Assembly (NCBI GenBank): GCA_017551025.1
Contig: JAFZNG010000014.1
Span: forward strand, 1-64,000
DNA from: Paludibacteraceae bacterium
Lineage (GTDB): Bacteria > Bacteroidota > Bacteroidia > Bacteroidales > Paludibacteraceae
Reading direction: 5' to 3'
DNA: 64,000 nucleotides
Position 1 is the first letter of the stretch. Every line of letters begins with the position of its first letter. Below are positions 7,015 through 59,954 of the stretch, one piece after another. The notes under the pieces are model-generated. The model made no database searches and had not been told where the DNA came from. It saw nothing but the letters and a program-made list of their open reading frames with translations. A program made the translations under genes and the position numbers.

Positions 7015-8197
7015 GTTCTGCAACTCCTCTTTGATTCGCGCCATAGCCTGACGGATCTGCTCCTCGCTAATGGCATACGACAGGCGGATGCAACTCGGGC
7101 AGCCGAAAGCCGAACCCGAGACCACCGCTACATGTGCTCGCTCCAGCAGACGCTCGGCGACTTCATCGCCCGTACCCCATCGGCTCACGTCCGGGAAGAG
7201 ATAAAAAGCCCCTTCCGGTTCGTGGAACTTCAGTCCGGGAATCTCGGCTGCCAAACTGCATATCAGTTGTCTGCGCGAATTAAATACCGCACGCATCTCC
7301 TCTACGCAGGTCTGATCGCCCGTCAAGGCTGCTTCGGCGGCCTTCTGCGCAATCATCGTGGCACAGGTGAGCACCTGCCCCTGCAGGCGAACACAAGCGC
7401 TCACAAGGGCTTTATTTTTCGACATGAGCCATCCGACACGATAACCGGTCATCGCATACGCTTTACTGACACCGTTGATGATGATGAGGCGATCGCTCAG
7501 GTCTTCGTAGGCGGCTAGGGTGTAGGGTGTATGGTGTAGAGTGTAGAGTGGAGGGGGTATAGATCAATTCATTATAGATCTCGTCGGAGAGGATATACAC
7601 CTCCGGATAGTCGCGCAGCACCTCGACCAGGGCGTCCATCTCTGCGGCACTATAGATACTACCCGTCGGGTTATTCGGCGAGCAGAGGATAATCATGCGT
7701 GTCTTAGGTGTAAGGGCCGCACGGAGTTGCTCCGGGCGAAGGCAATAACGATCCTCATAGCGGGTCTCTACAGGTACGACAACGCCTTCTGCCAACTTGA
7801 CCATCTCGCTGTAACTCACCCACGCAGGCATCGGTATGACTACCTCATCCCCTTTGTTGATAACCGCATGGATGGCATTATAAATCGCCATCTTAGCGCC
7901 CGCAGCCACTACCGTATCATCGCCTGTCCAGTCGATAGCATTTCCCGTCACACGGTTTTGATACGCGGCAACAGCAGTTCGTAAGGCCGGAATACCGGCT
8001 ACGGGACCATAGTGCGACCAGTGGTTATCTACCGCCTGTTGGGCTGCCAAACGGACATGCTGCGGTGTATCCATATCGGGTTCGCCGAGCGACATACTTA
8101 TCACGTCTATACCGGCCGCCTGCATCGCTTTGGCGCGGGCGGCCATCACCAGGCTCTGAGAAGCCGAGATATTTTGAATTCGTTGTGCGATTTGCAT
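7009..8197 (-). pseudogene. Aspartate-type PLP aminotransferase, frame broken inside a 7-bp repeat tract
   Basis: Two frames together make one class I/II aminotransferase of the aspartate family: the first (from 8197) has SLGEPDMDTP, PNNPTGSIY and SDEIYNELIY, then runs into a foreign sequence and stops at 7463; the second (to 7009) has the PLP-lysine region IINGVSKAYAMTGYR and the end of the fold. The break falls in five 7-bp units at 7519-7553. Both frames are open through the tract, and they differ by +1, so loss of one unit (or gain of two) would join them. One base too many in the run of five G at 7552-7556 would give the same result. As the last gene of the nucleotide operon it could supply aspartate for PyrB, PurC and PurA. 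It may be a true pseudogene, a phase-variable gene or an assembly error. Confidence 0.8.
7519..7553. repeat. Heptamer tract, 5 x GGTGTAG-type, inside the aminotransferase
   Basis: Units read GGTGTAG, GGTGTAT, GGTGTAG, AGTGTAG, AGTGGAG on the plus strand. The same word makes the tract 650 bp away at 8203-8230. It encodes a STLHSTPYTLHP-like stretch that has no counterpart between DEIYNELIY and the conserved VSKAYAMTG segment of the family. Confidence 0.9.
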
Positions 8198-8202
8198 ATT
8201 TT

Positions 8203-8230
8203 GGTGTAGGGTGTAGGGTGTAGAGTGTAT
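8203..8230. repeat. Heptamer tract, 4 x GGTGTAG, between purF and the aminotransferase
   Basis: Three exact GGTGTAG units and one AGTGTAT fill the gap between the purF stop and the aminotransferase start. Confidence 0.9.
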
Positions 8231-9660
8231 TAAAGGGTGTGGGCGGAGGAGCCGTCAAAACAATGCGTACAGATCTTGCTGCGCGACAGACCGATAGCCC
8301 GTATCAGTGTCTCGAGTTTCGTAAAGCGGAGTGAATGCAGGCCAAACTTATCGGCGATACAGTTGACCATACGTTTATACTCCGGCGAATCGGTGACGGT
8401 ATAGGCCTTTACGCGTTCTTCATCGAGCGCTGCCTCTTCTCCCTCCAGTTCGGCAATCGTGCGTCGCGTGATCAGTTCCATGATCGACTTCGACTCCGAG
8501 AAATTGATAAACGGACAGCCGTACAGTAGCGGAGGACAGGCCACACGCATATGAATCTCTTTTGCCCCGCCGTCGAGCAGACAGCGGGTATTATCGCGCA
8601 ACTGGGTGCCACGCACGATAGAATCGTCACACAGCAGCACGCGGCGGTCACGCAAAATAGCGTTGTTCTGGATCAGTTTCATCTTAGCCACCAGGTTACG
8701 CATCGTCTGGTCGGTAGGCATGAACGAACGTGACCAGGTAGGCGTATACTTGGAAATAGCACGGCGGTAGGGCACATTATGGCCCTCGGAATAACCAATT
8801 GCCATACCGATGCCGGAGTCGGGTACGCCGCAGCAGCAATCTACCTCCGTATCGTCCTCCTTGCCCATCGCAAAACCGATATAATTGCGTACGTCCTCTA
8901 CGTTGCGCCCTTCGAATGAAGAAGTCGGGAAACCGTAGTACACCCAGAGGAACGAACATATCTGCATATGATCCGGCAGCGGTTCGGCTAGTTGCTCATA
9001 GCGGTCGGCATAGCATCGAACGATTTCTCCGGGTCCCAGGTCGCGCACCGTTGTATACCCCAGGTTGAAGAAAGCCGAGGGTTCGCTGGCGGCGCACATA
9101 GCGCCTTCTTTCTGACCGAGCAGAATAGGTGTACGTCCCCACAGGTCGCGGGCACAAACGATACCGTTTTCCGTCAGGAGCATGAGCGAGAGCGAACCCT
9201 TGATCTGCTCCTGGGCAAAACGAATACCCTCTTCGAGTGTCGGGCGCTGAATGATCATCAGTCCGATGAGTTCCGTAGGATTGACCTTGCCGGAGGAGAA
9301 CTCCGAGAGGTGCATGTTATGCGCCAGGGCACGACCGGCCAATTCGTCAAGATTGTCAATCTTACCTACCGTACTGAGTGCGAACCGTCCCAGATGGGAA
9401 TTAAACAGCAAGGGCTGCGCATCGGTATCGGAGATAATACCGATACCGGCATTACCGATAAACTTCGACAACTCCTCCTCCATCTTCGTGCGGAACGAAG
9501 CCTGAGAGATTGAGTGGATGGCTCGATTAAAATGACCCGACTCAGCATCGTAGGTGGCCATACCGCCACGATGCGATCCGAGATGAGAGAGATAATCGGT
9601 GCCGTAGAAAACATCCGTCACACAGGGATGCGAACTAATAGATCCAAAAAAACCAGCCAT
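8230..9660 (-). CDS. purF: Amidophosphoribosyltransferase-like protein with degenerate glutaminase site
   Basis: The 476-residue protein has the PurF build. The C-terminal phosphoribosyltransferase half is intact, with GVPDSGIGMAIGY and the PRPP loop VLLCDDSIVRGTQ, and the Fe-S type cysteines of the Bacillus class appear present (CSFLWVYYG, GCPFINF, CTHCFDG). The N-terminal Ntn amidotransferase half is not: it begins MAGFFGS where active enzymes have Met-Cys-Gly, and the HNGN and Arg of GHxRYAT motifs are replaced (TVGKIDN, GIGIISDTD). Family knowledge says Cys at position 2 is the nucleophile for glutamine, so this enzyme should use ammonia, take it from a partner, or have another role. It is the only PurF in the window and lies in the right place in the operon. 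Confidence 0.8.
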   Translation of the reverse strand: MAGFFGSISSHPCVTDVFYGTDYLSHLGSHRGGMATYDAESGHFNRAIHSISQASFRTKMEEELSKFIGNAGIGIISDTDAQPLLFNSHLGRFALSTVGKIDNLDELAGRALAHNMHLSEFSSGKVNPTELIGLMIIQRPTLEEGIRFAQEQIKGSLSLMLLTENGIVCARDLWGRTPILLGQKEGAMCAASEPSAFFNLGYTTVRDLGPGEIVRCYADRYEQLAEPLPDHMQICSFLWVYYGFPTSSFEGRNVEDVRNYIGFAMGKEDDTEVDCCCGVPDSGIGMAIGYSEGHNVPYRRAISKYTPTWSRSFMPTDQTMRNLVAKMKLIQNNAILRDRRVLLCDDSIVRGTQLRDNTRCLLDGGAKEIHMRVACPPLLYGCPFINFSESKSIMELITRRTIAELEGEEAALDEERVKAYTVTDSPEYKRMVNCIADKFGLHSLRFTKLETLIRAIGLSRSKICTHCFDGSSAHTL

Positions 9661-9706
9661 TTTTTTTATGTATCTTATTTATAACAGACTATACTTTCTT
9701 TTTTTC

Positions 9707-10651
9707 TTATTTATTCAGATACGCGAGCACGTTCTTTTCTATTCGTGCGGCCAGATCCGAGCTGTCCGTCTTAGCGAACTTGTCGCCCGTAATACCCTCG
9801 AACAGTTCCACGTAGCGATCCGTGATCGACTGTACGATAGCCGGGGTCATATCCGGCACTTGTTGGCCGGCCTTGCCCTGGAAGCCATTCTCCATGAGCC
9901 ACTCACGCACGAACTCCTTGGACAGTTGGCGCTGCGGTTCACCCGCCGCGAAGCGCTCCTCATAGCCCTCGGCATAGAAATAACGGCTCGAGTCGGGCGT
10001 ATGCACCTCGTCCATGAGCATGACTTGACCATGATAGTTGCCGAACTCGTACTTGGTATCCACGAGTAGCAGACCGTGCTGACGTGCGATCTCCTGTCCG
10101 CGGGCAAAGAGGGCTAAAGCGTACTGTTCCAGCAATTCGTACTCCTTCTCCGGCACCAGTCCGCGGGCGATAATCTGCTCGCGCGAGATATCCTCGTCGT
10201 GCGTACCGATCTCGGCTTTGGTAGTAGGGGTGATGATAGGCGTAGGGAACTGCTCGTTCTCACGCATACCATCCGGCAACTTAACACCGCATATCTCCCG
10301 TGCGCCGGCTTTATACGCACGCCATGCCGAACCGCACAAATACCCGCGAACAATCATCTCTACGGGATAACCCTCGCAACGATAACCGATCGAGACCATC
10401 GGGTCGGGCGTCGCCTGCAACCAGTTGGGCACTATATCGCGGGTGGCATTCAGAAACTTAGCCGCAATTTGATTCAAGATCTGTCCTTTATAGGGAATTC
10501 CCTCCGGCAGGATAACATCAAAGGCCGAGATACGGTCGGTAGCTACCATACAAAGCAGGTCCTCGCCGATGAAATAGACATCACGTACCTTGCCGTGATA
10601 CACACCGGTCTGACCGGGAAACGAGAAATTAGTGGCTGTTAGCGCTTTCAT
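9707..10651 (-). CDS. purC: Phosphoribosylaminoimidazole-succinocarboxamide synthase
   Basis: PurC (SAICAR synthetase) joins aspartate to CAIR using ATP. The 314-residue chain, the longer form of the family, shows YHGKVRDVY near the start, the [10 protein letters not shown] motif, [18 protein letters not shown] and the late LVDTKYEFG. It lies 46 bp before purF; the gap is AT-rich with no clear signal. The upstream gap to carB holds a heptamer tract. Confidence 0.95.
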
Positions 10652-10655
10652 ATAT

Positions 10656-10690
10656 AATGGTTAATGGTTATTGGTTAATGGTTAATGTTA
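10656..10690. repeat. Heptamer tract, 5 x AATGGTT, between carB and purC
   Basis: AATGGTT, AATGGTT, ATTGGTT, AATGGTT, AATGTTA on the plus strand; the last unit covers the carB stop codon. Confidence 0.85.
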
Positions 10691-13600
10691 TTTATATTCG
10701 CTCCATTCGCGGATGGCGAGGGAGTCGAGCGGTACGTCCAGGAAGGCATTGATAAAGGCCTCTGCCAAACGTGCGTTGGTCAGGAGCGGGATATTCAGGT
10801 CCACGGCCGTACGGCGCATGCGATAGTAACTGTCATGCACCGAATCGGCCAGCGTATCTACCGGAATACCGACGAAGAGTTCGATCTGCTTGTTGTGCAT
10901 GAGGTTGGATACAATCGGTTGCTTGAGTTGTCCGAACTCATCCATGTGTTCCTTCTTATAGACGCGTATATTGGGTACGCCGAGTCCGTTCAGGTACTCG
11001 CTCGTACCACCGGTAGCATAGATGGTATATCCGCGCTCTACGAGTCGCTTGATAGTATCCAGCAGGTGGGCACGCTGTTTCGGTCCGCCGATAGCGAAGA
11101 GGATATTCTTCTTAGGAATACGCATACCTACCGAAAGCATCGATTTGAGCAGGGCACAGTTGGCATCCTCGCCCAAGCAGCCTACCTCACCCGTAGAAGC
11201 CATATCTACACCCAGGATAGGATCGGCATTCTGCAGGCGGTTGAAAGAGAATTGCGAAGCCTTAACGCCTACGTAGTCGAAGTCGAAGAGCGACTTATGC
11301 GGACGCTCGATAGGTAGGTCGAGCATAATACGTGTGGCCAGGTCGATAAGATTGATCTTGAGCACCTTGCTCACAAACGGGAACGAACGCGAGGCACGGA
11401 GGTTACACTCGATGACCTTGATCTCATTCTCGCGGGCGAGGTACTGGATATTGAACGGTCCGGATATATTCAGTTCGCGTGCGATCTGTCCGGAGATACG
11501 CTTGATACGGCGTACGGTCTCCACGTATAGTTTCTGGGCGGGGAACATGATGGTCGCATCACCCGAATGGACGCCCGCAAACTCGACATGCTCCGAGATA
11601 GCGTAGGCTATGATCTCACCATTGCGCGCTACCGCATCCATCTCGACCTCCTTGGTGTTGGTCATAAACTTGGAGATCACCACCGGGTGTTCCTTAGAGA
11701 CCTTGGCGGCCAATTGCAGGAACTTATGGAGTTGCTCCTCGTTAGAGCATACATTCATCGCCGCGCCCGAGAGGACGTACGACGGACGCACCAGCACAGG
11801 ATATCCGACACGATTGACGAATTTCTCTACGTCGTCCATGGAACTGAGGGCACTCCATTCCGGTTGGTCCACGCCGATACGGTCGAGCATAGCGGAGAAC
11901 TTATCACGGTCCTCGGCGTTGTCGATCGACTTGGCCGAAGTACCGAGGATAGGTACCTGCTGGGCGTCGAGTTTGATAGCCAGGTTATTCGGTATCTGTC
12001 CACCCGTAGAGACGATGACACCATGCGGATTCTCCAGTTCGATGATATCCATGACGCGCTCGAAGGTCAGTTCATCGAAATAGAGGCGATCGCATACGTC
12101 GTAATCCGTAGAGACGGTCTCGGGATTGTAATTGATCATGACAGAGCGGAATCCGTTGTTGCGGATCGTATTCAGTGCTTGTACGCCGCACCAGTCAAAC
12201 TCGACGGACGAACCGATACGATACGCACCCGAACCAAGTACGATGATCGACTTGTGGTCGCCGGTATACTGAAGGTCGTTGCGTGTACCACTATAGGTCA
12301 GGTACAGATAGTTGGTCTGGGCAGGGAACTCACCCGCCAGCGTATCGATCTGCTTGACGACAGGCAGTACGCCCATTTGTTTGCGGTAAGCCCGCATGCG
12401 TAGTACGGCCTGATCCATCGGCATCGACTGACCCAGACCGACGGCGCGTGCTATCTGGAAGTCGGAGAAGCCGAGTTGCTTGGCGCGCAACAAGAGATCG
12501 TGATCGAGTTGTTCTAATCCGGTCAGTTGCTTGAGTTGGGCATCCAATTGGATGATATGCTCCAATCGCTGGAGGAACCAGTTATCAATCTTGGTGAGGG
12601 CATGTATCCGCTCTACGCTATAGCCCTCGTACATCGCCTGGGCGATGGCAAAGATGCGCTTGTCGGTAGGTGCTTTGAGTGCGGCTTCCAAGTCATCAAC
12701 GCGCAGGTCCTTATTCTCAGTGAAGCCATGCATGCCTTGTCCGATCATACGCAAACCTTTCTGGATCGCATCCTCGAAGGTGCGACCGATAGCCATCACC
12801 TCGCCTACGGACTTCATCGAACTGCCCAGTTCGCGATTCACACCGCGGAACTTACCCAGATCCCAACGCGGGATCTTACATACGACATAGTCGAGTGCGG
12901 GTTCAAAGAAAGCCGAGGTGGACTGCGTTACGGAATTCTTTAGTTCGAACAGGCCGTAACCCAGGCCCAGCTTGGCTGCCACGAAAGCCAGGGGATAACC
13001 CGTAGCCTTGGACGCCAGGGCCGATGAACGACTCAGGCGGGCATTCACCTCGATGACACGATAGTCTTCCGATTCGGGATCAAAGGCATACTGTACGTTA
13101 CACTCACCCACGATACCCAAATGACGGATGATGCGGATAGCCAGTGCGCGCAGTTTATGGTACTCGGCATTGGTCAGGGTTTGCGACGGTGCGATGACGA
13201 TCGACTCACCGGTATGAATACCCAGCGGGTCGAAATTCTCCATGTTGCAGACCGTGATACAATTGTCGTAGCGGTCGCGCACCACCTCATATTCTATCTC
13301 TTTCCATCCTTTGAGCGATTTCTCCACCAGTACTTGCGGCGAGAAAGAGAACGCTTTCTCTACCATGGTATTCAGTTCCTGCTCGTTGTCGCAGAAACCC
13401 GAACCCAGACCGCCCAGGGCATAAGCCGCACGGATGATTACCGGATAACCCAGTTCGGCCGCCGCACGACGCGCCTCATCGGCCGTCTCACAGGCCTCGG
13501 ACTTGATGGTCTTGACATCGATCTGATCCAGTTGGCGCACAAACCGTTCGCGGTCCTCGGTATTGATAATCGTCTCTACCGGTGTACCCAGTACCTGTAC

Positions 13601-13933
13601 ATGATACTTTTCCAGCACCCCTGAGCGGAACAGCTCTACGCCGCAGTTCAGGGCCGTCTGACCGCCGAATGAAAGCAGGATACCGTCCGGACGCTCTTTC
13701 TCGATGAGTCGCTCTACGAAATAAGGCGTCACCGGCAGGAAGTAGATATGATCCGCCACGCCTTCGGAGGTCTGAACGGTGGCAATATTCGGATTGATCA
13801 GCACGGTCTCTATACCCTCTTCGCGTAGGGCTTTGAGAGCCTGGGAACCGGAATAATCAAACTCGCCTGCCTCGCCGATCTTCAGTGCACCCGAACCGAG
13901 CACCAAGACTTTATGTATATTCTCAAATTTCAT
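10688..13933 (-). CDS. carB: Carbamoyl-phosphate synthase large chain
   Basis: The 1081-residue chain has the usual two homologous ATP-grasp halves: KVLVLGSGALKIGEAGEFDYSG opens the first and SIIVLGSGAYRIGSSVEFDW the second, followed by an MGS-like regulatory domain (IYATGGTSEYL). It makes carbamoyl phosphate from ammonia, bicarbonate and two ATP, with ammonia channelled from CarA. carA is directly upstream (10-bp gap), so the pair is co-translated. In this position carbamoyl phosphate feeds PyrB of the same operon and, if arginine genes exist elsewhere, arginine. Length and motifs are normal. Confidence 0.97.
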   Translation of the reverse strand: MKFENIHKVLVLGSGALKIGEAGEFDYSGSQALKALREEGIETVLINPNIATVQTSEGVADHIYFLPVTPYFVERLIEKERPDGILLSFGGQTALNCGVELFRSGVLEKYHVQVLGTPVETIINTEDRERFVRQLDQIDVKTIKSEACETADEARRAAAELGYPVIIRAAYALGGLGSGFCDNEQELNTMVEKAFSFSPQVLVEKSLKGWKEIEYEVVRDRYDNCITVCNMENFDPLGIHTGESIVIAPSQTLTNAEYHKLRALAIRIIRHLGIVGECNVQYAFDPESEDYRVIEVNARLSRSSALASKATGYPLAFVAAKLGLGYGLFELKNSVTQSTSAFFEPALDYVVCKIPRWDLGKFRGVNRELGSSMKSVGEVMAIGRTFEDAIQKGLRMIGQGMHGFTENKDLRVDDLEAALKAPTDKRIFAIAQAMYEGYSVERIHALTKIDNWFLQRLEHIIQLDAQLKQLTGLEQLDHDLLLRAKQLGFSDFQIARAVGLGQSMPMDQAVLRMRAYRKQMGVLPVVKQIDTLAGEFPAQTNYLYLTYSGTRNDLQYTGDHKSIIVLGSGAYRIGSSVEFDWCGVQALNTIRNNGFRSVMINYNPETVSTDYDVCDRLYFDELTFERVMDIIELENPHGVIVSTGGQIPNNLAIKLDAQQVPILGTSAKSIDNAEDRDKFSAMLDRIGVDQPEWSALSSMDDVEKFVNRVGYPVLVRPSYVLSGAAMNVCSNEEQLHKFLQLAAKVSKEHPVVISKFMTNTKEVEMDAVARNGEIIAYAISEHVEFAGVHSGDATIMFPAQKLYVETVRRIKRISGQIARELNISGPFNIQYLARENEIKVIECNLRASRSFPFVSKVLKINLIDLATRIMLDLPIERPHKSLFDFDYVGVKASQFSFNRLQNADPILGVDMASTGEVGCLGEDANCALLKSMLSVGMRIPKKNILFAIGGPKQRAHLLDTIKRLVERGYTIYATGGTSEYLNGLGVPNIRVYKKEHMDEFGQLKQPIVSNLMHNKQIELFVGIPVDTLADSVHDSYYRMRRTAVDLNIPLLTNARLAEAFINAFLDVPLDSLAIREWSEYK

Positions 13934-15020: not shown

Positions 15021-16315
15021 CTCCATATAGTTGCTTCGCGATCAGGTCCCACAGAAATAATCCGGATAGGAGTGCCTAATTCGCGTTCCAAGAAATTCAC
15101 ATAATCGATAAATGCCTGCGGCAAGTCCTCCTGCTTGGTACAATGCGTGAGGTCGGTTTGCCAGCCGGGCAGTTCCTGATAGACGGGTTCTACTTTCTCG
15201 TCGAGCGAGAACGGGAAATCACGGGTCAGTTCGCCATTGATACGATACGCGGTACATGCCTTGATAACCGGGAAGGTGTCCAAAACATCGGATTTCATCA
15301 TCAGCAGTTGTGTCACGCCGTTGAGCATGATGGTATAACGGAGTGCGACGAGGTCGATCCATCCGCAGCGACGTTCACGTCCGGTAACGGCGCCGTATTC
15401 ATGGCCGATATCGCGCATCTTCTTACCCGTCTCGTCAAACAGTTCGGTAGGGAACGGACCGGCACCTACGCGGGTGCAGTAGGCCTTGAAGATACCGTAT
15501 ACTTCGCCGATACGACTAGGAGCCAGACCAAGACCGGTGCATGCGCCTGCACAGACGGTGTTGCTCGAGGTAACGAAAGGATACGAACCGAAATCAATGT
15601 CCAAGAGTGATCCCTGTGCTCCTTCGCAAAGAAGCGACTGACCGGCGGCCAAGGATTGATTCACGAAATGCTCGCTATCGATCAGTCTAAACCCGCGCAG
15701 ATAGTCGATACTCTGCATCCACTCCTGCTCCAGTGCTTCCAGTCCGTCGAGCGATACGGGTGCACCGCCATTCGCCACGGCGGTGGCGTTAAGGGCTTGA
15801 ATCATATCGATATGACGGTTACGGGCACGGGTATATTTCTCGGCGAAGTTATCGGCGATATCCCCTACGCGCAAGCCGTGACGACTAACTTTATCGGTAT
15901 AGGTCGGACCGATGCCTTTGCCGGTCGTACCGATCTTAGCTTTGCCTTTGGCCGCTTCGTTGGCCTGGTCGAGCAGTCGATGGGTCGGCAAAATCAGGTG
16001 GGCCTTGCGCGAGATATAGAGCCGCTCGCGCAGGTTATGACCGGACCCGGCCAATTCCTCTGCTTCTTTTTGAAACAGGATCGGGTCCAGCACTACGCCA
16101 TTACCGATCAGGTTGACTTTGCCCCCCTGGAAGATACCGGACGGAATGCTGCGGAGCACGTATTTCTGGCCTTCAAACTCCAGGGTGTGACCGGCATTCG
16201 GGCCACCCTGAAAACGTGCTACCATATCATATTTGGGCGTCAAGACATCTACCATTTTGCCTTTGCCCTCATCGCCCCATTGGAGTCCTAAAAGGATATC
16301 TGCTTTTTTTGTCAT
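15017..16315 (-). CDS. purA: Adenylosuccinate synthetase
   Basis: PurA links IMP and aspartate with GTP, the first step to AMP. The 432-residue protein starts with the P-loop region [15 protein letters not shown] and has [16 protein letters not shown] and the GRERRCGW segment. Spacing is typical of the operon: 4-bp overlaps on both sides (carA start and purB stop). Confidence 0.97.
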
Positions 16316-17608: not shown

Positions 17609-17636
17609 ATTGGTGATTGGTGATTGGTTATTGGTT
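17609..17636. repeat. Heptamer tract, 4 x ATTGGTG, over the folD stop
   Basis: ATTGGTG, ATTGGTG, ATTGGTT, ATTGGTT on the plus strand. The tract runs into the 3' end of folD, supplying its last codons (Asn-Gln-stop) on the minus strand. Confidence 0.9.
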
Positions 17637-22846: not shown

Positions 22847-22875
22847 ATTTACGATTTGACGATTTACGATTGACG
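22847..22875. repeat. Heptamer tract, ATTTACG-type, between purL and purM
   Basis: ATTTACG, ATTTGACG (8 bp), ATTTACG, ATTGACG on the plus strand; it fills almost the entire gap. Confidence 0.8.
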
Positions 22876-22878
22876 ATC

Positions 22879-25800
22879 TTACATCCTAAAATAATTAACT
22901 GCGTTTTCAAACAAAGGCTGGCATTTATTACCAGCAATATTGGTAAACACGCCCTCTTCCCAACGTTCGGTATGGCCCATCTTGCCCAGGATCTGTCCGT
23001 TGGGCGAGATCAGACCTTCGATGGCGTAGCAGGAACCATTCGGGTTATAAGGTGACTGCATGGCAGCTTGTCCTGTGCGCGGATCGGCATAACGGAAGGC
23101 CACCTGACCGTTTTCAAACAGTTGACGCGCAAGTTCTTCACTCACCACCAGTTTTCCCTCGCCATGACTGACGGCGATGCTATGCAGATCACCGATAGAC
23201 ATGTTTTTGAGCCACGGACTATTCGTCGAAGCGACCATGGTGGTTACCATCTGGGATACGTGACGATTGATATCATTGCGGAATAGTGTCGGACTGGCTG
23301 TCGTCACTTGACCGAACCGGCCGTAAGGCAGCAGGCCGGACTTGATGAGCGCCTGGAAACCATTGCAGATGCCTAAGATCAGTCCGCCGCGTTGGAGCAA
23401 GTCTTCGATAGCACGACTTACTTTCTGCTGGTTGAGCACCGAAACGATGAACTTCGCCGAACCATCCGGTTCATCGCCCAGCGAGAAGCCACCGGCTAAC
23501 ATAAGTATCTGTGCACGACGGATATGTGCTTCCATCTCATCAATCGAAGCGATCACGTCCTGTTCGGTCAGATTACGGAAGACGGTCATCTGCACTTCCG
23601 CACCGGCCTTACGCCATGCTTTGGCGCTATCGAAATCGCAGTTGGTGCCCGGGAAGACAGGAATATAAACGAGCGGTTTCCGACCTTTCAGCTCTTCGTG
23701 CTGCAAAATAGTTTCCTTAGAAACCACAGGCTGTATATCTTTTGGAAGCAAGTCTTGGTGCTGCGGTTGCGCAGACGAAGCATAGACTTTGTTAAACGGT
23801 TCCGTACATGCGTGATATAAATGGTTGCGATTCACCGCCTCGCCGTTAATAACGATGTTTTCTCCTTCTGTCAAAGTGCCGAGATAGAGGGCGTCTTGGA
23901 TAGCCAGTTCTTCGGTTGCTTCGACTAAGATGCTACCGTACTGATAGTCAAATAACTGCTGTTCGTCCAGACGAATATCTGCGCCTAATTCATTACCGAA
24001 AGACATCTTCGCCAAGGCCTCACAAACGCCGCCGAAACCGATGGCATAAGCCGACACGATCTTGCCCGACTGAATAGCGCGGGTGGTCTCGGACCAAAGG
24101 CGCTTGAGTTGGTCGGTATTCGGCATGTAGTTGGCTAAGGGTTTGTGTTGCAACAAATACAGGCGGTTACCGGCCTTCTTCCAATCGGTACTGATGACGG
24201 TATCCGCCTTCACGGTCGTGATACCGAAAGCGATCAAGGTGGGTGGTACGGATATCTGTTCGAAAGTACCGGACATCGAGTCCTTACCACCGATAGACGG
24301 CAAGCCCAGAGCCACCTGCATCTTCAGCGCACCCAGTAGGGCACTCAGCGGTTTACCCCAACTGGTACGAGAAGTCATACGTTCGAAATACTCCTGATAA
24401 CTGAAGCGCATAGGACGATAGTCCGCTCCGGCTGCGACCACCTTACTGCAGGCTTCTACGACCGCATAAGCGGCACCATGATACGGACTCCATTCGGCGA
24501 GGAACGGGTTATAGCCGAAGGCCATTACAGACGCCGTGTTTGTAAAGCCGTCGGTAGGCAGTTTCTGCACGCTGACTTGCGTTTCGCTGCGTTGCATCTT
24601 ACCGCCGAAAGGCATCAGCACAGTAGAACGACCGATCGTGGCATCAAACTCCTCAATCAGTCCTTTCTGGCTCGTCACGTTGGCAGAACGCAGCACGTTG
24701 CTCATGCGCTCTTCCAAGGAGTCTCCTTGTGCGGCTTGATAGAACGGATCGCGCTCCTCAACCGGAAGGATAGTAGCCTTGGCATAGTGTTTAGCACCTG
24801 CTGAGTCGATAAACGCACGGCTCAAATCTGCCACCAACGTGCCGTTGTAGTACTGACGCATACGGCCGGTGTCGGTCACGTCGGCTACGTGGGTCACCTC
24901 GATATTATCCTGTCGGCAGAACTGCTCGAAGGCAGTTTGGTCTTTTTTGGCTACGACGACAGCCATTCGTTCTTGTGACTCCGAGATAGCCAGTTCGGTA
25001 GGGTTGAGACCGGCATATTTGGTAGGTACGCGGTCCAGGTAAATATCCAATCCGTCGGCCAGTTCACCAATCGCCACGCTGACACCTCCGGCACCGAAGT
25101 CATTGGACTTCTTAATCAGACTGGTTACCTCGCGGCGGCGGAAGAGTCGTTGGATCTTACGTTCTTCGGGTGCATTACCTTTTTGCACCTCACTACCGCA
25201 GGCTTCAAGGGAAGCTTCGGTATGTTCTTTGCTGGAACCGGTGGCACCACCGATGCCGTCGCGTCCTGTGCGTCCGCCCAGAAGTAGGATTACATCCCCT
25301 GCTGCGGGACTTTCGCGGCGTACGGCATCCGCACGGACTGCACCGACGACCGCACCGACTTCCAGTCGCTTCGCTACATAGGAAGGATGGTATATCTCAC
25401 GTACATGGGTGGTGGCCAAACCGATTTGGTTGCCGTAGGAGGAATAACCAGCCGCGGCTTTACGGGAGATAATCTGCTGGGGCAGTTTACCGGCCAGGGT
25501 GTCACTAACAGGTGCGTAGATATCACCTGCTCCGGTGACGCGCATCGCCTGGTAGACATATGCACGACCGGACAACGGGTCGCGAATCGCACCACCCAGA
25601 CAGGTGCTGGCACCACCAAAAGGTTCTATCTCGGTCGGGTGGTTATGGGTCTCATTCTTGAATTGCAACAACCAACGCTCGTCATGGCCGTCAACATCGA
25701 CGGTGATAAATATAGAGCAGGCGTTGTTCTCCTCGCTCACCTCCAGATCCTCCAACAGGCCTTCGTGCTTGAGATAACGCGCACCTATCGTGGCCAGTTC

Positions 25801-35238: not shown

Positions 35239-35270
35239 CAAAGGTACTGCTTTTTTTTGATATATGCAAA
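35239..35270 (-). promoter_or_regulatory. Promoter of the pyrimidine-purine operon
   Basis: On the minus strand TTTG (35267-35270), 20 bp, TACCTTTG (35239-35246). A stretch of about 55 bp around it is almost identical to the promoter at 35645-35676 in front of tRNA-Pro. The short leader includes ATAC and GTAT arms around TACGGGGA, a weak hairpin; no riboswitch is evident. It is the only clear promoter I find for the 22-gene run, though I did not score every gap. Confidence 0.8.
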
Positions 35271-35330
35271 TTATTTTGCACTTTTTTTCGGAAAAAAATG
35301 TTTTGTGCAAATCACGATAGATAAGAAATC

Positions 35331-35644: not shown

Positions 35645-35676
35645 CAAAGGTACTGCTTTTTTTTGATATACGCAAA
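35645..35676 (-). promoter_or_regulatory. Promoter of the leader and tRNA-Pro
   Basis: TTTG (35673-35676), 20 bp, TACCTTTG (35645-35652) on the minus strand, abutting the topA stop codon at 35677. Near-identical to the pyr operon promoter. Confidence 0.8.
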
Positions 35677-40339: not shown

Positions 40340-42064
40340 ATGCAATCCGAGTGGAAGATACGACAACTGAGCGATGAGGAGCAGGCCATCCAGGCCATGC
40401 TCGCTAAGGAACTGAAGATAAGCGACCTGTCGGCACGTATGCTGGTAGATCGCGGACTGACTACGCCTGAGGCGGCACGGCGGTTTGTGCGGCCAACGAT
40501 CGACGAACTCCACGATCCCTTCCTCATGCGCGATATGGAGCAGGCTGTGTTGCGCCTGCATACCGCCATTGAGCAACACGAACGTATCATGGTCTATGGC
40601 GATTATGACGTGGACGGCACGACCGCCACGGCACTGATGTACAGTTTTCTGCGCCATCTGACCGACAATCTTATCTTCTATATCCCCGACCGGCATAAGG
40701 AGGGATATGGTATTTCTTTCCGGGGTATCGACGTAGCGCAACAGGAGGGTTGCACGCTCATGATCGCCCTGGACTGCGGCATCAAGGCCGTAGATAAAGT
40801 GGATTATGCGGCCGAACGCAAGATCGACTGCATCATCTGTGACCACCACACGCCCGGTGAGACATTACCTCGGGCGCGTGCCGTACTGAATATGAAGCGG
40901 GCGGATTGCCCGTATCCCTATAAAGAACTCTCGGGTTGCGGTGTAGGCTTTAAGTTAGCCCAGGCGTATACCGAACGGTATTGTCTCAACCCGCAATGGT
41001 TGCACAGTTTGTTGGCACTCACGGCGATGTCTATCGCCTCGGATATCGTGCCTATCACGGGCGAGAACCGCGTGCTGGCCACCATGGGTTTACGTCAGAT
41101 CAACCGTCTGCCGTCGATTGGTGTGCGGGCTATCATGCAGGTAGCCGGTATAGCGGACAAGCCGGTGGGTATTCAGGACCTGGTCTATAAGATCGGTCCG
41201 CGTATCAATGCCGCCGGCCGTATGCATAGCGGTGCGGAGGCTGTGCGGCTACTCATCACCGACGATCCCGAGTATGCCCGCCATCTGGCGCAAGAGATAG
41301 ACAGTCATAATACCGAACGGCGTGACTGTGACAACCGCACCAAGGAAGAGGCGCTCGCGCAACTGGAGAACGATCCTGACAATAGTAAGAAATATACCAC
41401 CGTAGTCTATGCGCCGGGTTGGCATCGCGGCGTAGTAGGTATTGCGGCATCCAGACTGACGGAGGTGTATTACCGTCCGACGATTGTACTGACCTCGGAG
41501 GAAGACGCAGGCGAGATAACCGGTTCGGCACGTTCGGTTAGCGACTTTGATATCTACCAGGCTATTGACTCGTGCAGCGACCTGCTCACGAATTTCGGAG
41601 GCCATCGTTTTGCCGCCGGACTGAGTATGATGCCCGAGAACTTGCCCGAGTTCCGTCGTCGATTCGAAGCCTATGTTGCGGCGCATATCCGTCCCGAACA
41701 GATGAGGCCTACCGTAGATGTAGAGGCAGAGATAGCTTTTGACGAGATCACGCCTGAGTTCTTCAACCTCTTGCGCCACCTGGAACCTTTCGGACCGGGT
41801 AATCCGCGTCCTGTGTTCGTCACGCGCAACGTCATCAATAACCGTGGTACGCGTCGCGTAGGTCGTACGGGTGAACACCTGCGTCTGGACCTGACCGACC
41901 GCACGGCGGCTATCTCCGGTATTGCCTTTGGCGAGGGCGACAAAGCGCTCTATTTGCAGAATGGCAATCCGATAGATCTATGCTATGAGTTGGAGGAAAA
42001 CACCTTCAATCATATGACCTCTATCCAGCTCCGACCGGTAGAGATACGCCTGCTTAACCCATAA
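40340..42064 (+). CDS. recJ: Single-stranded-DNA exonuclease RecJ
   Basis: RecJ of 574 residues: DHH motifs with MVYGDYDVDGTTATALMY, DCGIKAV, ICDHHTPGE, the DHHA1 segment VVGIAASRLTEVY, GSARSVSDFDIYQAI and FGGHRFAAGLSM. It degrades ssDNA 5' to 3' in recombination and mismatch repair. Its last two codons and stop fall in a heptamer tract. Confidence 0.96.
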   Translation: MQSEWKIRQLSDEEQAIQAMLAKELKISDLSARMLVDRGLTTPEAARRFVRPTIDELHDPFLMRDMEQAVLRLHTAIEQHERIMVYGDYDVDGTTATALMYSFLRHLTDNLIFYIPDRHKEGYGISFRGIDVAQQEGCTLMIALDCGIKAVDKVDYAAERKIDCIICDHHTPGETLPRARAVLNMKRADCPYPYKELSGCGVGFKLAQAYTERYCLNPQWLHSLLALTAMSIASDIVPITGENRVLATMGLRQINRLPSIGVRAIMQVAGIADKPVGIQDLVYKIGPRINAAGRMHSGAEAVRLLITDDPEYARHLAQEIDSHNTERRDCDNRTKEEALAQLENDPDNSKKYTTVVYAPGWHRGVVGIAASRLTEVYYRPTIVLTSEEDAGEITGSARSVSDFDIYQAIDSCSDLLTNFGGHRFAAGLSMMPENLPEFRRRFEAYVAAHIRPEQMRPTVDVEAEIAFDEITPEFFNLLRHLEPFGPGNPRPVFVTRNVINNRGTRRVGRTGEHLRLDLTDRTAAISGIAFGEGDKALYLQNGNPIDLCYELEENTFNHMTSIQLRPVEIRLLNP

Positions 42065-42081
42065 CCCGTAACCCATAACCC
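42054..42081. repeat. Heptamer tract, 4 x ATAACCC, over the recJ stop
   Basis: TTAACCC, ATAACCC, GTAACCC, ATAACCC. It covers the recJ stop codon and the start of the gap to tdk. Confidence 0.85.
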
Positions 42082-42091: not shown

Positions 42092-42685
42092 ATGTTTTCA
42101 GAAAGAGACACGCAAGGTCCTTCGCGCCGCAGAGGCAGTATAGAAGTAGTATGCGGTAGTATGTTCTCGGGCAAGACCGAAGAACTGATCCGCCGTATGA
42201 AACGTGCGCAGTTTGCCCGTCAACGCGTAGAGATCTTCAAACCCGCCATTGATGTGCGCTACTCGGTAGAAGATGTCGTCAGTCACGACCATAACGTCAT
42301 TCAATCCACGCCGGTCGATTCTTCGCAGCAGATTTTATTGCTGGCCGATGATATCGATGTCGTAGGTATCGATGAGGCGCAGTTCTTCGATATGGGGATT
42401 GTAGATGTCTGCGAACAGTTGGCGGCACGCGGTATCCGCGTCATCTGTGCCGGACTGGATATGGACTTCAAGGGGATACCTTTTGGTCCGATGCCGGCGC
42501 TGATGGCTATCGCAGAGGACGTGTATAAGACGCATGCGATATGTGTCCATTGCGGTGACTTGGCCTATGTGTCCCACCGTCTGGTCCATTCGGACAAGCG
42601 CGTCCTGCTGGGTGAGACCGACAGTTACGAACCGCTCTGCCGCGCCTGCTACCGCAAGGCCCTGGAAGCAGAGGGTGAGCAATAG
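42092..42685 (+). CDS. tdk: Thymidine kinase
   Basis: Type II thymidine kinase, 197 residues: P-loop [14 protein letters not shown], the DEAQFFD motif, the zinc cysteines [10 protein letters not shown] and CRACYRK, and the lasso EPLCRACY. It phosphorylates thymidine for salvage. The N-terminus before the P-loop is slightly long ([17 protein letters not shown]), as in Bacteroides relatives. Its stop lies at the start of a heptamer tract. Confidence 0.95.
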
Positions 42686-42718
42686 CCATTAGCCATTAAC
42701 CTTTAGCCATTAGCCATT
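42684..42718. repeat. Heptamer tract, 5 x AGCCATT, between tdk and priA
   Basis: AGCCATT, AGCCATT, AACCTTT, AGCCATT, AGCCATT; begins on the tdk stop and reaches the likely priA start region. Confidence 0.9.
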
Positions 42719-42736
42719 CGCCTAATTGACGTCATA

Positions 42737-45587: not shown

Positions 45588-45948
45588 GAGCTTCTTCCCG
45601 TATATCTTCCGGTAGCGAGATACGTCGTAGCTGCAGGCTGCGGCACCAACCGGGTATGTCCGCTTCGCGGAGTGTCTCGAATACCTCGCGCATCATCTGA
45701 TGCTGCGCCGGCGTGAAATCCTCCGGCGGTGTATCGGCCAGTTGGTCGAGTTCTTCGTCGTCGTAATAGACGATCTCGGCATTGGTTTGCAAGAGGGTTT
45801 CGCGCTCGCAGACCAGGTGTTCGCCGCAGCAACCGTCAGGACGGCTATCGGCTTTTGGCTCTTGGTTCTTGGCTTTCTGGCGCTCACGTATCTCCGTGAG
45901 CACCAGCACCACAATCGCCAGTACTATGAATAGTAGTAGAGGAATCAT
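45550..45948 (-). CDS. Conserved Bacteroidales protein with N-terminal anchor and CCG-H-CE motif
   Basis: The 132-residue product has one membrane helix ([20 protein letters not shown]), then [14 protein letters not shown], an acidic [19 protein letters not shown] and a C-terminal globular part ([24 protein letters not shown]). I recall similar proteins in Bacteroides but no function. The stop of parE overlaps its start by 4 bp, so it is co-transcribed behind parE. Its 3' end overlaps the convergent CPBP gene by 38 bp. Residues around 22-30 ([13 protein letters not shown]) are encoded by a heptamer tract, just after the membrane helix. Confidence 0.7.
45843..45877. repeat. Heptamer tract, 5 x GGCTCTT-type, inside the CCG-H-CE protein
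   Basis: GGCTATC, GGCTTTT, GGCTCTT, GGTTCTT, GGCTTTC on the plus strand; encodes the polar linker after the membrane helix. Confidence 0.75.
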
Positions 45949-51400: not shown

Positions 51401-52294
51401 ATGCTTCGACATATTCGCATCGTATCACCTTCCGGAGCAATTGAACCGGAGTATATAAAAGGCGCCATGGAGCGCCTTTTATCGCTGGGCTTTGAGGTAA
51501 CGGTCTCGCCGCATGCCTATGGCCGCAGCGGACGTTTTGCCGCCAGGGATGACGAACGCCTCGCCGATCTCAACGAGGCGCTGCAGGACCCGAGGGTAGA
51601 TGCTATCCTGTGTTCGCGCGGCGGATACGGCCTGCAACGCATCATCGACCGCGTCGTGGCGGTACATAAACCTATCATCGGTTTTTCGGATATCACGGCG
51701 CTGCATCAGTTATCCGCTATCAGCTCTCAGCCGTCAGTACATAGCATCATGTGCAAACACCTGGCGACCCTACCGCAACAGAGCGAAGCCTTCCGGCGCA
51801 CGATAGAACTGCTACGAGGTGCGCCGCTCCGCTACGAGCTGCCCTCCCATCCGCTGAACCGTACGGGAGAAATCACGGCACCGCTTATAGGCGGCAACCT
51901 CTCCGTCCTATACGGCCTGCAGGGAACGCCGTTTGAAATTAAAAATTTAAAATTAAAAATTAAAAATTGTAATCAAAGACCGATTCTGCTGATCGAGGAT
52001 ATATGCGAGCGGCATTATCATATCGACCGGATGATGAACAACCTGCGGCTGAGTGGCGTACTCGAGCATCTGAGCGGCCTCGTCGTAGGACAGTTTACCG
52101 ACTGCGAGGACGATCCGCTGATGGGCGAGACCGTACTGGAGACTATTGCTCGCTATGCGGCGCCGTATGACTATCCGGTGGTGTTTGACGCCCCCGTGGG
52201 GCACGTAGCACATAACCTGCCGTTGTGGCTTAACCGACCAACGAAACTAACCGTCACGAATGACTATGTCCAAATCGTGCAAGACAATGACTAA
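51401..52294 (+). CDS. ldcA: LD-carboxypeptidase (peptidase S66)
   Basis: 297-residue S66 protein that trims the last D-Ala from muropeptide tetrapeptides in peptidoglycan recycling. Signs: IVSPSGAIEPEYI, SRGGYGLQRI, catalytic Ser in IGFSDITALH, Glu in LLIEDICERHYHIDRM and His in VGHVAHNLPLWL. Two heptamer tracts lie in frame: residues around 104-112 (LSAISSQPS) and around 180-190 (IKNLKLKIKN). Both are in places where S66 proteins have loops; the first is 3-4 residues after the catalytic Ser. The frame is unbroken. The start has a coding hairpin with arms AAAAGGCGC and GCGCCTTTT (51459-51482). Confidence 0.88.
   Translation: MLRHIRIVSPSGAIEPEYIKGAMERLLSLGFEVTVSPHAYGRSGRFAARDDERLADLNEALQDPRVDAILCSRGGYGLQRIIDRVVAVHKPIIGFSDITALHQLSAISSQPSVHSIMCKHLATLPQQSEAFRRTIELLRGAPLRYELPSHPLNRTGEITAPLIGGNLSVLYGLQGTPFEIKNLKLKIKNCNQRPILLIEDICERHYHIDRMMNNLRLSGVLEHLSGLVVGQFTDCEDDPLMGETVLETIARYAAPYDYPVVFDAPVGHVAHNLPLWLNRPTKLTVTNDYVQIVQDND
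51707..51734. repeat. Heptamer tract, 4 x CAGCTAT-type, in ldcA
   Basis: CAGTTAT, CCGCTAT, CAGCTCT, CAGCCGT, then CAG; follows GFSDITALH coding. Confidence 0.75.
51936..51969. repeat. Heptamer tract, AAATTAA x about 5, in ldcA
   Basis: AAATTAA, AAATTTA, AAATTAA, AAATTAA, AAATTG; gives the Lys-rich stretch before LLIEDI. Strikingly AT-rich in a GC-rich gene. Confidence 0.85.
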
Positions 52295-54657: not shown

Positions 54658-56109
54658 ATGGCAACTGACAAAACATCCCAAGTCTTTGACATCTTTGCGC
54701 AAATCAACCAGGTGCCTCGTCCGTCGAAGCACGAGGAGCGCATTAGTAAGTGGCTGCAGGACTTTGCAGCCGAGCACGGTATTGAGTGTATCGCCGACGA
54801 GGCGATGAACGTCATCATGCGTGTACCCGCTACGCCCGGTTATGAGGACCATGAGGGCGTTATCCTGCAGGCACACATGGATATGGTCTGCGAGAAGAAC
54901 GGCGACGTCAAGCACGACTTCATGAACGACCCGATCCAGACCTACGTGGACGGCGAGTGGCTCAAGGCGAAAGGCACGACCCTCGGTGCAGACGATGGCA
55001 TCGGTATATCTATGGCGCTGGCAGCCATTACCGACAAGGAACTGAAGCACCCCGCTATCGAGTGCCTCTTCACGGTGGACGAGGAGACCGGACTGACCGG
55101 CGCGATGCAACTGAAGGACGGCATGCTGCGCGGCCGTCGGCTCATCAACCTCGACTCGGAGGACGACGGCCAGATCTTCATCGGTTGTGCCGGCGGTATC
55201 GATACGCTCGCTCGTATGAAATACGAGCCAATTCAAAATTCAAAATTAAAAATTCAAAATTCATTAGCCATCCGCTTATCGGTAAGCGGACTGATGGGCG
55301 GTCACTCGGGCGATGATATCAACAAGGGTCGCGCGAACGCCAACCAACTGTTGGTATGGTTCCTGGCACGTATCTGGCCGCAGACCGAGGTGCAACTGGC
55401 GCGCATCAACGGCGGCAACCTGCGCAACGCCATCGCCCGCGAGGCGGAGGCCGTACTGACCGTTCCGATGGCGTATAAGGAGCAGATCCGTATCGAGTGG
55501 AACCACTTCACGGCTCAGATGGAACAGGTGTTCGGCCAGGTAGAGAAAGACATGCGGCTGGAACTGGAGACCACAGACATGCCCGAGGAGTTTATCCCGG
55601 CTGAGAAAGCCTACCGCCTCATCATGGCGCTCTGCGAGTGCCCGCACGGCATGATCGCCATGAGCAAAGACATGCCCGGACTGGTAGAGACGAGTACCAA
55701 CCTCGCGTCGATTAAAATGAAGGAAGGATATATCGAAGTGAATACCTCACAGCGTTCGTCTATCGAGGCCAGCAAGCACCACCTGAAGTGGGCGGTAGAG
55801 CAGGCTCTCTCGATGGCATGCGACGAAGTGACCCACGGCGACGGTTATCCGGGTTGGGCACCGAATCCCAAATCCGCCTTGCTGGAGATCACGAAAGCGG
55901 CCTACGAAGAACTCTTCAAGGCTGAACCCAAGGTGCTGGCTATCCATGCCGGACTGGAGTGTGGTCTGTTCCTGGAGAAATACCCGTACCTGGATATGGT
56001 CTCGATCGGTCCGCAAATGTACGGTGTCCACTCGCCCCAAGAGCGTCTGTCGATTCCGAGTACGGAGCGTTGCTACCAATGGCTTATCAGCGTTTTGGAG
56101 AAACTCTGA
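54658..56109 (+). CDS. pepD: Aminoacyl-histidine dipeptidase (cytosol nonspecific dipeptidase)
   Basis: M20-family dipeptidase of 483 residues: QVPRPSKHEERISKWL, metal ligands in LQAHMDMVCEKN, TLGADDGIG and FTVDEETGLTGA, the lid-domain MGGHSGDDINKGRANA, and the final HAGLECGLF. It cleaves dipeptides in the cytosol. A heptamer tract encodes IQNSKLKIQNS (residues about 192-202) at the start of the dimer/lid domain. The frame stays open. It is followed by the GACCG element and a strong terminator. Confidence 0.94.
   Translation: MATDKTSQVFDIFAQINQVPRPSKHEERISKWLQDFAAEHGIECIADEAMNVIMRVPATPGYEDHEGVILQAHMDMVCEKNGDVKHDFMNDPIQTYVDGEWLKAKGTTLGADDGIGISMALAAITDKELKHPAIECLFTVDEETGLTGAMQLKDGMLRGRRLINLDSEDDGQIFIGCAGGIDTLARMKYEPIQNSKLKIQNSLAIRLSVSGLMGGHSGDDINKGRANANQLLVWFLARIWPQTEVQLARINGGNLRNAIAREAEAVLTVPMAYKEQIRIEWNHFTAQMEQVFGQVEKDMRLELETTDMPEEFIPAEKAYRLIMALCECPHGMIAMSKDMPGLVETSTNLASIKMKEGYIEVNTSQRSSIEASKHHLKWAVEQALSMACDEVTHGDGYPGWAPNPKSALLEITKAAYEELFKAEPKVLAIHAGLECGLFLEKYPYLDMVSIGPQMYGVHSPQERLSIPSTERCYQWLISVLEKL
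55230..55264. repeat. Heptamer tract, 5 x AATTCAA, in pepD
   Basis: AATTCAA, AATTCAA, AATTAAA, AATTCAA, AATTCAT. Very AT-rich against a GC-rich gene. Confidence 0.9.
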
Positions 56110-56111
56110 TT

Positions 56112-56209: not shown

Positions 56210-56230
56210 ATACGCATACGCGTGCGCGCA

Positions 56231-59281: not shown

Positions 59282-59385
59282 AATGATTTTTGTTAGTATT
59301 TTTTGATTTTATTTTTCCTTGTTTTACTCGCGCGAAAAAACGCGCACAACGTACGCGTAAGTGCACACGAGCGCAAAATCGGCTG

Positions 59386-59417
59386 CAAAGGTACAAAAAA
59401 AATACGATATACGCAAA
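59386..59417 (-). promoter_or_regulatory. secDF promoter
   Basis: TTTG (59414-59417), 20 bp, TACCTTTG (59386-59393) on the minus strand. The leader of about 100 nt contains GC-rich words such as CGCGCGAAAAAACGCGCAC and ACGTACGCGT. Confidence 0.8.
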
Positions 59418-59459
59418 AAAAATCCGTATTTTTGTCAAAAAACCTAGTTTTTCAGGGTC

Positions 59460-59954
59460 TTACCGGCGAAATGAGTAGTATTTCTGGCCAAAGAAACTGA
59501 CCAAAACGGTGATCAACGTGATAACCACCTTGCTCGGCGTAGGATACCAACCCAGCACCTCCACACATAGCTTCAGACCTACGTAGTTGATGAGCAGATT
59601 GACCGCTACGATCAGGACATACCGCACGAGCTGACGTGCCCCGTGCAAGGTGGACTGCGTGAAGGTTACGTACTTATTCAACCAAAAACCCGTCAGCAGC
59701 GTAATCGGAAACACGATACACAGCGTCGCGATATGCGGGGTGAGACAAAGTTGAAAGTTAAAAGTTGAGAGTTGAAAGTATACCAAGTCGTGCCCTATAA
59801 CAAAGTTATAGATCAGAAAATACAGCAACCAGTCCAGCACCATGTTTCCACCTCCGCAGGCGGCATAGCGGAACATCTCTTCCGGCAGAAACTTCCGGAA
59901 GGGCGGATAAAAGAAGTCGATGACTTTCGTAATCAATTGGGCTAGTTTTCGCAT
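59460..59954 (-). CDS. GtrA-family membrane protein
   Basis: The 164-residue protein has the GtrA fold of four helices: RYAACGGGNMVLDWLLYFLIYNFV, IATLCIVFPITLLTGFWLNKYVTF, LVRYVLIVAVNLLINYVGLKLC and KVVITLITVLVSFFGQKYYSF. GtrA proteins help move lipid-linked sugars for surface glycans. Between helices one and two the sequence FQLSTFNFQL is encoded by a heptamer tract and looks like extra length. It has its own promoter. Confidence 0.8.
   Translation of the reverse strand: MRKLAQLITKVIDFFYPPFRKFLPEEMFRYAACGGGNMVLDWLLYFLIYNFVIGHDLVYFQLSTFNFQLCLTPHIATLCIVFPITLLTGFWLNKYVTFTQSTLHGARQLVRYVLIVAVNLLINYVGLKLCVEVLGWYPTPSKVVITLITVLVSFFGQKYYSFRR
59747..59781. repeat. Heptamer tract, 5 x AAAGTTG, in the GtrA gene
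   Basis: AAAGTTG, AAAGTTA, AAAGTTG, AGAGTTG, AAAGTAT on the plus strand. Confidence 0.9.

Follow-up and report, generated by a model that had tools for sequence, protein, structure and literature searches.

Tandem repeats of heptanucleotides are found in many bacteria, and their origin is unsettled. The short tandemly repeated repetitive sequences (STRR) of cyanobacteria, credited to Mazel et al. in 1990, are reportedly tandem heptanucleotides scattered along the chromosome. Here we describe tandem tracts of the same 7-bp period in a genome of the Bacteroidota, assigned to the family Paludibacteraceae (GenBank assembly GCA_017551025.1; 1.94 Mb, 36 contigs, 95% complete). The window, i.e., the whole stretch of 64,000 nucleotides that was analysed, comprises the first 64 kb of contig 7 (JAFZNG010000014.1). 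The tracts resemble STRR in being scattered tandem heptanucleotides, while the host phylum differs: the nearest records of the PepD-type dipeptidase encoded in the window are not cyanobacterial and belong to Paludibacteraceae or uncultured Bacteroidales. The closest named ones are metagenome assemblies labelled Paludibacteraceae or 'uncultured Bacteroidales', several of them from rumen or other ruminant gut, and judging from these PepD neighbours the host is likely a ruminant-gut member of the Paludibacteraceae.

Dispersed heptamer repeats have been described in cyanobacteria, Xanthomonas, Beggiatoaceae and a few Bacteroidetes (PMC4679880, PMC4692102). The systems closest to the present one are: (i) the TAACTGA repeats of Beggiatoaceae, Cyanobacteria and five Bacteroidetes (MacGregor, 2015; PMC4679880), (ii) the GGGAATC/GGGGAYT repeats of Xanthomonas and Nostoc (PMC4692102), and (iii) the long simple sequence repeats (LSSR) of prokaryotes, with periods of 5-11 (as described in PMC4679880 and PMC4692102). 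Two sets of TAACTGA repeats are reported in Paludibacter propionicigenes (PMC4679880), which overturns the statement of the initial annotation of the window that heptamer repeats had no description for Bacteroidales. The TAACTGA study follows one word (PMC4679880), whereas the present genome has 25 canonical words in 58 tracts, 24 of which lie in predicted genes. The GGGAATC/GGGGAYT repeats are likewise dispersed, and their length and sequence at the same site vary between related species; they are chiefly intergenic, with four units commonest in both xanthomonads (PMC4692102). Each group has one G-rich word, for which quadruplexes have been proposed, and the sites are largely common to the two xanthomonads (PMC4692102), whereas here the words are varied and often A+T-rich, and the sites turn over fast. 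Neither TAACTGA nor GGGAATC or GGGGAYT was the word of any of the 229 tracts that we collected.

LSSR share with the tracts an excess of tandem repeats in which period 7 is the commonest, and slippage has been proposed for them. The view that polymerase slippage favours period 7 is attributed to Mrazek et al. (2007), and the length of DNA interacting with the polymerase has been suggested as the reason for the number 7 (PMC4679880, PMC4692102). In contrast to LSSR, one genus is followed here site by site, with a shared vocabulary, presence or absence at orthologous sites and related words at shared sites; moreover, many tracts lie in genes even though a 7-bp unit does not preserve the triplet frame. 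The many-word vocabulary, the tracts in protein loops and the rewriting in place go beyond the descriptions known from these articles; in the passages of PMC4679880 and PMC4692102 consulted, we found no account of one heptamer word giving way to another at the same site between congeners.

We assign a probability of roughly 0.55 to the following reading: heptamer tracts of about 32 bp spread by short-block copying without homology and are then rewritten in place by slippage in 7-bp steps. A short block from an existing tract would be copied into a new, non-homologous site, probably by a nascent strand that switches template onto a tract elsewhere in the genome. The tract would subsequently be homogenised in place through 7-bp-step slippage, and selection would act as a filter, with tracts persisting in short intergenic gaps and variable protein loops. 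What is inferred in this scheme is the copying step, together with the roles given to slippage in homogenising tracts and to selection in filtering them. Block copying, if real, would place insertions in operon spacers and protein loops where ordinary annotation would overlook them.

Detection and abundance of period-7 tracts

The initial annotation had listed 12 sites with tandem 7-bp units in the window. Tandem Repeats Finder (TRF; minimum score 30) recovered all of them as period-7 arrays of at least 24 bp, together with a 13th period-7 row at 56153 that spans only 19 bp. In 20 dinucleotide-preserving shuffles, 0-3 period-7 rows were obtained per shuffled window, and the rows of at least 24 bp summed to one. 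The 12 arrays, with a unit inside the 5-11 nt range of LSSR, are therefore beyond chance in number, and the reported period-7 tracts are real. With a stricter detector of our own (match +1, mismatch -2, score at least 13, runs of period 1-3 removed), 9 of the 12 tracts were kept (those at 22847, 45850 and 51705 were dropped) and none appeared in the 20 shuffles. Period 7 was the top period in the window, with 9 tracts vs 2 for the next one, and the excess was specific to it. The shuffle counts already refute chance, and tracts were found in many separate assemblies, which speaks against an assembly artefact; we give practically no weight to either. The tracts, with the open reading frames (ORFs) that they touch, are:

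7516..7559, reverse strand: period-7 tract of TACACYC words, inside the aminotransferase class I ORF 7463-8197
8203..8229, reverse strand: period-7 tract, 27 of the 32 bp between the stop of the GATase_7 ORF 8230-9660 and the aminotransferase start
10655..10687, reverse strand: period-7 tract, 33 of the 36 bp between the carB-type ORF 10688-13933 and the SAICAR synthetase ORF 9707-10651
17609..17636, reverse strand: period-7 tract covering the stop of the folD-type ORF 17628-18482 and the gap to the adenylosuccinate lyase ORF 16312-17604
22847..22882, reverse strand: mixed 7/8-base tract, from the FGAM synthase-type ORF 22879-26598 to the AIR synthase-type ORF 21815-22843
42055..42081, forward strand: period-7 tract containing the stop codon of the RecJ-type ORF 40340-42064, with thymidine kinase downstream
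42683..42722, forward strand: period-7 tract containing the stop codon of the thymidine kinase ORF 42092-42685, with the PriA-type ORF 42737-44716 downstream
45850..45874, forward strand: weak period-7 tract (TRF score 36)
51705..51731, forward strand: weak period-7 tract (TRF score 33), inside the LD-carboxypeptidase ORF 51401-52294
51936..51968, forward strand: period-7 tract with the word AAATTAA, inside the same LD-carboxypeptidase ORF
55230..55263, forward strand: period-7 tract with the word AATTCAA, inside the PepD-type dipeptidase ORF 54658-56109, at residues about 191-202
59747..59779, reverse strand: period-7 tract with the word ACTTTCA, inside the GtrA-type ORF 59460-59954

All 12 sites thus stand, albeit with unequal strength, since those at 45850 and 51705 are weak. 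A uniform 7-bp unit does not hold at 22847, where 7- and 8-base units mix. The corresponding 15-base 7+8 unit (ATTTACG ATTTRACG type) was seen in three genomes (22847-22882, L004:20198-20232 and L030:14519-14553), one of which lies beyond the nearest relatives. Each site had been credited with a word of its own except 7519 and 8203; these two do share a word, and the tracts at 51936 and 55230 turned out to be near-relatives as well (90.6% identity over 32 bp).

The scan was extended to 402 kb of the same genome (the window and 338 kb of further stretches), in which 58 period-7 tracts were found vs 8 each at periods 8 and 9, no other period exceeding 8. The median tract length is 32 bp (interquartile range 28-34), which bears out the fixed period and near-constant length described earlier for the window. 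The density of period-7 tracts is 14.4 per 100 kb in this genome, 28.8 in its congener G115 (69 tracts in 240 kb) and 15.4 in the eight records with the most similar PepD (L001-L008). It falls to 5.3 in the loci L009-L019 and to 1.3 in L020-L080, where 6 of 61 loci account for all 15 tracts; stretches from 20 genomes of the phylum gave 2 tracts, or 0.6 per 100 kb. The sampling also took in twelve other congeners: ten of them spread from 1 to 16 per 100 kb, and two (G104 and G122, very short or N-masked, with no period-7 tract) were left out of the densities and the pooled list. The densities from 1 to 16 indicate that abundance shifts quickly.

Mismatch-repair loss was rejected as a cause: mutS1 was matched in 101 of 101 family genomes (92 above the cut-off), including the tract-rich present genome, which is the sole member of this set with a measured tract density. 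Two unusually long arrays of TACACCA type were observed in the present genome, at L145:11-94 (12 units, at the contig start) and L149:5947-6008 (about 9 units). In some sisters, period 11 is the commonest short tandem period (5 vs 0 of period 7 in L012, 3 vs 0 in L013, and 14 vs 11 in L009-L019 pooled), and the favoured tandem period itself may differ between lineages.

Shared words, gain of tracts and rewriting in place

With 402 kb instead of 64 kb, the idea of one word per locus had to be abandoned. AAAAATT is the word of 23 of the 58 tracts, and 10 further ones fall in one other word family (ACACCCT, ACACTCT and ACACCAT together). A few heptamer words are thus found at many loci of one genome, as in the STRR and dispersed families. 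All 229 tracts collected, from this and other genomes, comprise 99 canonical words. A 32-bp form, AATTAAA AATTAAA AATTnnn AATTAAA AATT, has 75 matches in the present genome vs 5 for the reversed pattern (at most one mismatch; a few matches overlap in register). It was found in 17 of 61 genomes drawn from the more than 61 of the genus in the collection, the present one included, with 1 to 75 matches each. In a 395-genome sample of the phylum without other family members, an ACG version of this form was found in the present genome only. Exact words are shared by 0.083 of the same-genome pairs vs 0.032 of the cross-genome pairs (maximum of 1000 label shuffles, 0.065), so that part of the vocabulary is genome-specific. 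Among the tracts listed, those with a common word are surrounded by sequences that look unrelated, so they are not duplicated segments.

Searches beyond the family gave no reading for a cross-phylum vocabulary. An AATCACC-type tract matched 16-17 plasmid records, mostly of cyanobacteria and Rhizobium, but its reversed control matched more (25, mostly enterobacterial). A CTCTCAA tract matched no plasmid records in either rotation; its 35 stretches in viral_contigs had no control and were not used.

Dozens of tracts differ in presence between sister genomes, and words have changed at shared sites, which makes slippage, copying and regulation directly testable. The sister species G115 and G130 are collinear over long stretches, with local DNA matches mostly 82-93% identical. 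The 35 G115 tracts that could be mapped divide into 25 without and 10 with a counterpart tract in G130; of the 13 G130 tracts, 8 were mapped, 7 of them to a G115 tract at the same site. Some of the 25 are borderline; at C6 17906, for example, G130 has by eye a degenerate, sub-threshold repeat. The net size difference is divisible by 3 at 20 of the 25 G115-only sites. One of the 25 sites (C8 60824) shows a clean difference of 34 bp between a stop codon and a start codon, while most other sites replace a stretch. Outgroup sequence was available for 13 of the 25 sites, with no tract at 9, a weak one at 2 and a strong one at 2, C8 60824 belonging to the last pair. Some outgroup loci were chosen for carrying the AATT pattern, so this sample leans towards tracts; the 9 sites without a tract point to gains in G115.

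The words of the 25 G115-only tracts form 11 exact pairs and 42 near pairs (at most one mismatch). Random 7-mers from the empty sites gave 0.35 exact and 6.6 near pairs (maxima 3 and 16; 500 draws); with genomic 7-mers of matched AT content, the corresponding figures were 1.4 and 11.2 (maxima 7 and 25). Tracts unique to one sister species therefore share words far above the expectation for local origin, contrary to the initial view that no sequence is spreading. Several of them also share multi-unit stretches, and one 23-mer with identical variant order occurs at three G115 loci. Sharing of aperiodic 20-mers in G115 is 52 vs 29.6 for shuffled units (maximum 47). In the present genome, 47 of 50 listed AATT places were compared (165 matches counted): 48 pairs are identical including the variant units, vs 10.7 for shuffled units (maximum 37; 0 of 2000 as high) and 17.3 under a within-position shuffle (1 of 2000 as high).

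These data bear directly on purely local slippage, in which each tract would grow from a local 7-mer, 7 nt being the step by which the polymerase slips most easily. In most genomes surveyed, heptamers are reportedly the top repeat category (PMC4679880). Local slippage also fits the finding that words at shared sites are related, and a partial unit seems, by eye, to be present at some of the empty sites. It does not account well for the 11 exact pairs (vs 0.35), for the multi-unit variant order that recurs across loci in the AATT list and G115 (not in the present genome's sample at large), for the different commonest words of the two sister genomes, or for a tract length that barely varies. We consider local slippage rather unlikely as the whole explanation.

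The near-constant blocks of about 32 bp, the scattered copies and the clean 34-bp junction difference would also suit a dedicated mobile element, whose heptamer blocks would be inserted by a reverse transcriptase, a transposase or an end-joining enzyme. This is quite improbable. The flanks of tracts with the same word look unrelated, and inspection by eye revealed no target duplication at the sites compared. As general requirements, both enzymes that were looked for fail: RVT_1 was matched in 6 of 14 genus genomes, including the tract-rich G115, but not in G000 and G135, which are tract-rich too, and Ku was matched in none of the 14, the present genome included.

Several results weigh against short-block copying followed by rewriting. 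No enzyme has been identified for the copying, and no donor-recipient pair with a traceable junction was seen among the tracts compared. In the 58 tracts of the present genome, 20-mer sharing shows no excess (31 vs 32.8 for shuffled units). Pairs of tracts less than 3 kb apart have no extra word sharing (30 vs 26.4 expected; 228 of 1000 permutations at least as high), and local spreading was consequently rejected. When the present genome is removed, the exact-word excess is 0.034, inside the permutation range (maximum 0.040), although the one-mismatch excess of 0.137 is still above its maximum of 0.131. Words such as the AAAAATT types recur across different genomes, so part of the sharing may be convergence. 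Finally, 34 of the 69 G115 tracts were unmappable and were dropped, and C8 60824 has a tract in one of two outgroup loci (a locus chosen for the pattern), by which loss in G130 is possible there.

At shared sites the words are related but different. At 12 distinct shared sites they differ by a mean of 1.83 positions (best rotation), whereas words from different sites differ by 3.36, and none of 5000 permutations reached so low a value. When only the 9 sites whose sizes differ by no more than 15 bp are considered, the values are 1.67 and 3.51 (6 of 5000 permutations). This fits turnover of units and upholds, for change in place, the earlier suggestion of a process acting on 7-bp units. In the clearest case, every unit is AAAATTG in G130 vs AAAGNTG in G115, in phase and in a gap-free alignment. 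The same pattern was seen by eye for GATTGTT vs GGCTGTT, and for AAAGTGA vs AAGCTAA, where the left-edge unit of G115 is still AAGGTGA. Such in-phase change across units is what concerted evolution would give; for the most divergent word pairs, a tolerant site that independently received a second insertion may be the explanation instead.

Taken further, copying and rewriting would make the tracts a gene-less simple sequence that acts like a mobile element, blocks of 4-5 heptamers being copied chromosome-wide to non-homologous sites, overwriting spacers and loops, with words replaced in concert. We advance this tentatively, as a possibility short of even odds. If it is true, the operon junctions and surface loops of each species bear a heptamer vocabulary peculiar to that species.

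Placement in gene junctions and protein loops

Gene positions were taken from a simple gene caller of our own, which predicted about 89% of the sequence as coding. Of the 58 tracts, 24 lie in predicted genes, 24 in same-strand gaps, 4 between convergent and 1 between divergent genes, and 5 at stretch edges. A tract is present in 20 of the 81 same-strand gaps that measure 15-69 bp. In the window, the gap tracts form a series with purine and pyrimidine genes and stand between RecJ-, thymidine kinase- and PriA-type genes, while the in-gene tracts are in those for the aminotransferase, LD-carboxypeptidase, PepD-type dipeptidase and GtrA-type protein. A perfect consensus repeat would give an in-frame stop in 12 of the 24 in-gene tracts, whereas none of the 24 real tracts has one; at 51936..51968, for instance, a perfect AAATTAA repeat would contain a stop that the real tract lacks. 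Because gene prediction itself excludes stops, this absence illustrates selection and is no test of it.

The PepD tract encodes a segment (residues about 191-202) that is flanked by the predicted strands 179-188 and 202-210 (AlphaFold2, mean predicted local distance difference test score, pLDDT, 88.6), and the region aligns with a poorly matched part before the GGHSG of the solved PepD structure 3mru. The loop was parsed in 72 of 81 sequences, 8 of which have a period-7 tract there: AATTCAA in the window, and AAATCAC, AAATCAT, AAAGTTG, AATCTYC, TGCACAA, ATAGCCA and AGGCGAA types in seven relatives, some of these words being near-relatives of one another. The segment has 38 residues in 54 of the 64 tract-free sequences. 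By eye, a tract was also seen in L007, whose loop was not parsed, and L004 has a 16-base repeat in place of the heptamer tract.

Among the present genome and the relatives compared, the aminotransferase loop tract occurs in the present genome only. No tract was found in the 12 of 29 relatives in which this loop was parsed, all with 35 residues, and none of the tracts listed for the loci of the 29 relatives is at the loop position. Upstream of the gene the picture is different: a tract is present no more than 20 bp ahead of the matched aminotransferase start in the present genome (GGTGTAG) and in 5 of 29 relatives (AATTCAA, ATAATTG, AGTTGAT, TCATAAT and AATTATG types), whichever gene lies upstream. 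At the SAICAR synthetase junction, parsed in 13 of 21 relatives, two carry GTTTAGA/GTTTAAT and two, by eye, a CGTAAAT/CGTCAAT mix, with no tract in most of the others parsed.

Tracts so close to a start codon might be regulatory sites that bind an RNA- or DNA-binding protein controlling downstream translation, as proposed for the TAACTGA repeats. The aminotransferase junctions and the 24 tracts in same-strand gaps, some of them a few bases upstream of a start codon, agree with this. As against that, predicted genes contain 24 of the 58 tracts, another 4 stand between convergent genes, and congeners carry different words at the same site or, in many cases, no tract there, which renders a regulatory role highly improbable.

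Phase-variable switches, with 7-bp copy changes shifting frames and turning genes on or off, are suggested by the aminotransferase ORF 7463-8197, which loses its frame past the tract. It is, however, the one clear case: 20 of the 25 sister-specific tracts keep a multiple-of-three size, and the scanned window genes that contain or adjoin a tract mostly look like housekeeping genes. Phase variation as a general role is accordingly extremely improbable. The aminotransferase gene itself (7009-8197) is split into two ORFs directly past the heptamer tract, while the frames of relatives are long and open; it is either a broken gene, a frame-variable gene or an assembly variant.

Other repeats were also observed in the window. 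A 166-bp direct repeat with 90% identity (193-358 and 60316-60479) lies near both window ends in A+T-richer flanks; it contains 9-bp tandem units, part of it (60398-60448) matches its own reverse complement, and it looks like a small dispersed element. A 69-bp repeat flanks tRNA-Pro on both sides (35228-35296 and 35634-35701), and a related, inverted stretch of about 60 bp is located just upstream of the tmRNA gene (5112-5171). Finally, at 864-3010 an EcoRI-type adenine methylase gene adjoins a gene with GmrSD and HNH nuclease domains, and the pair likely constitutes a restriction-modification system.

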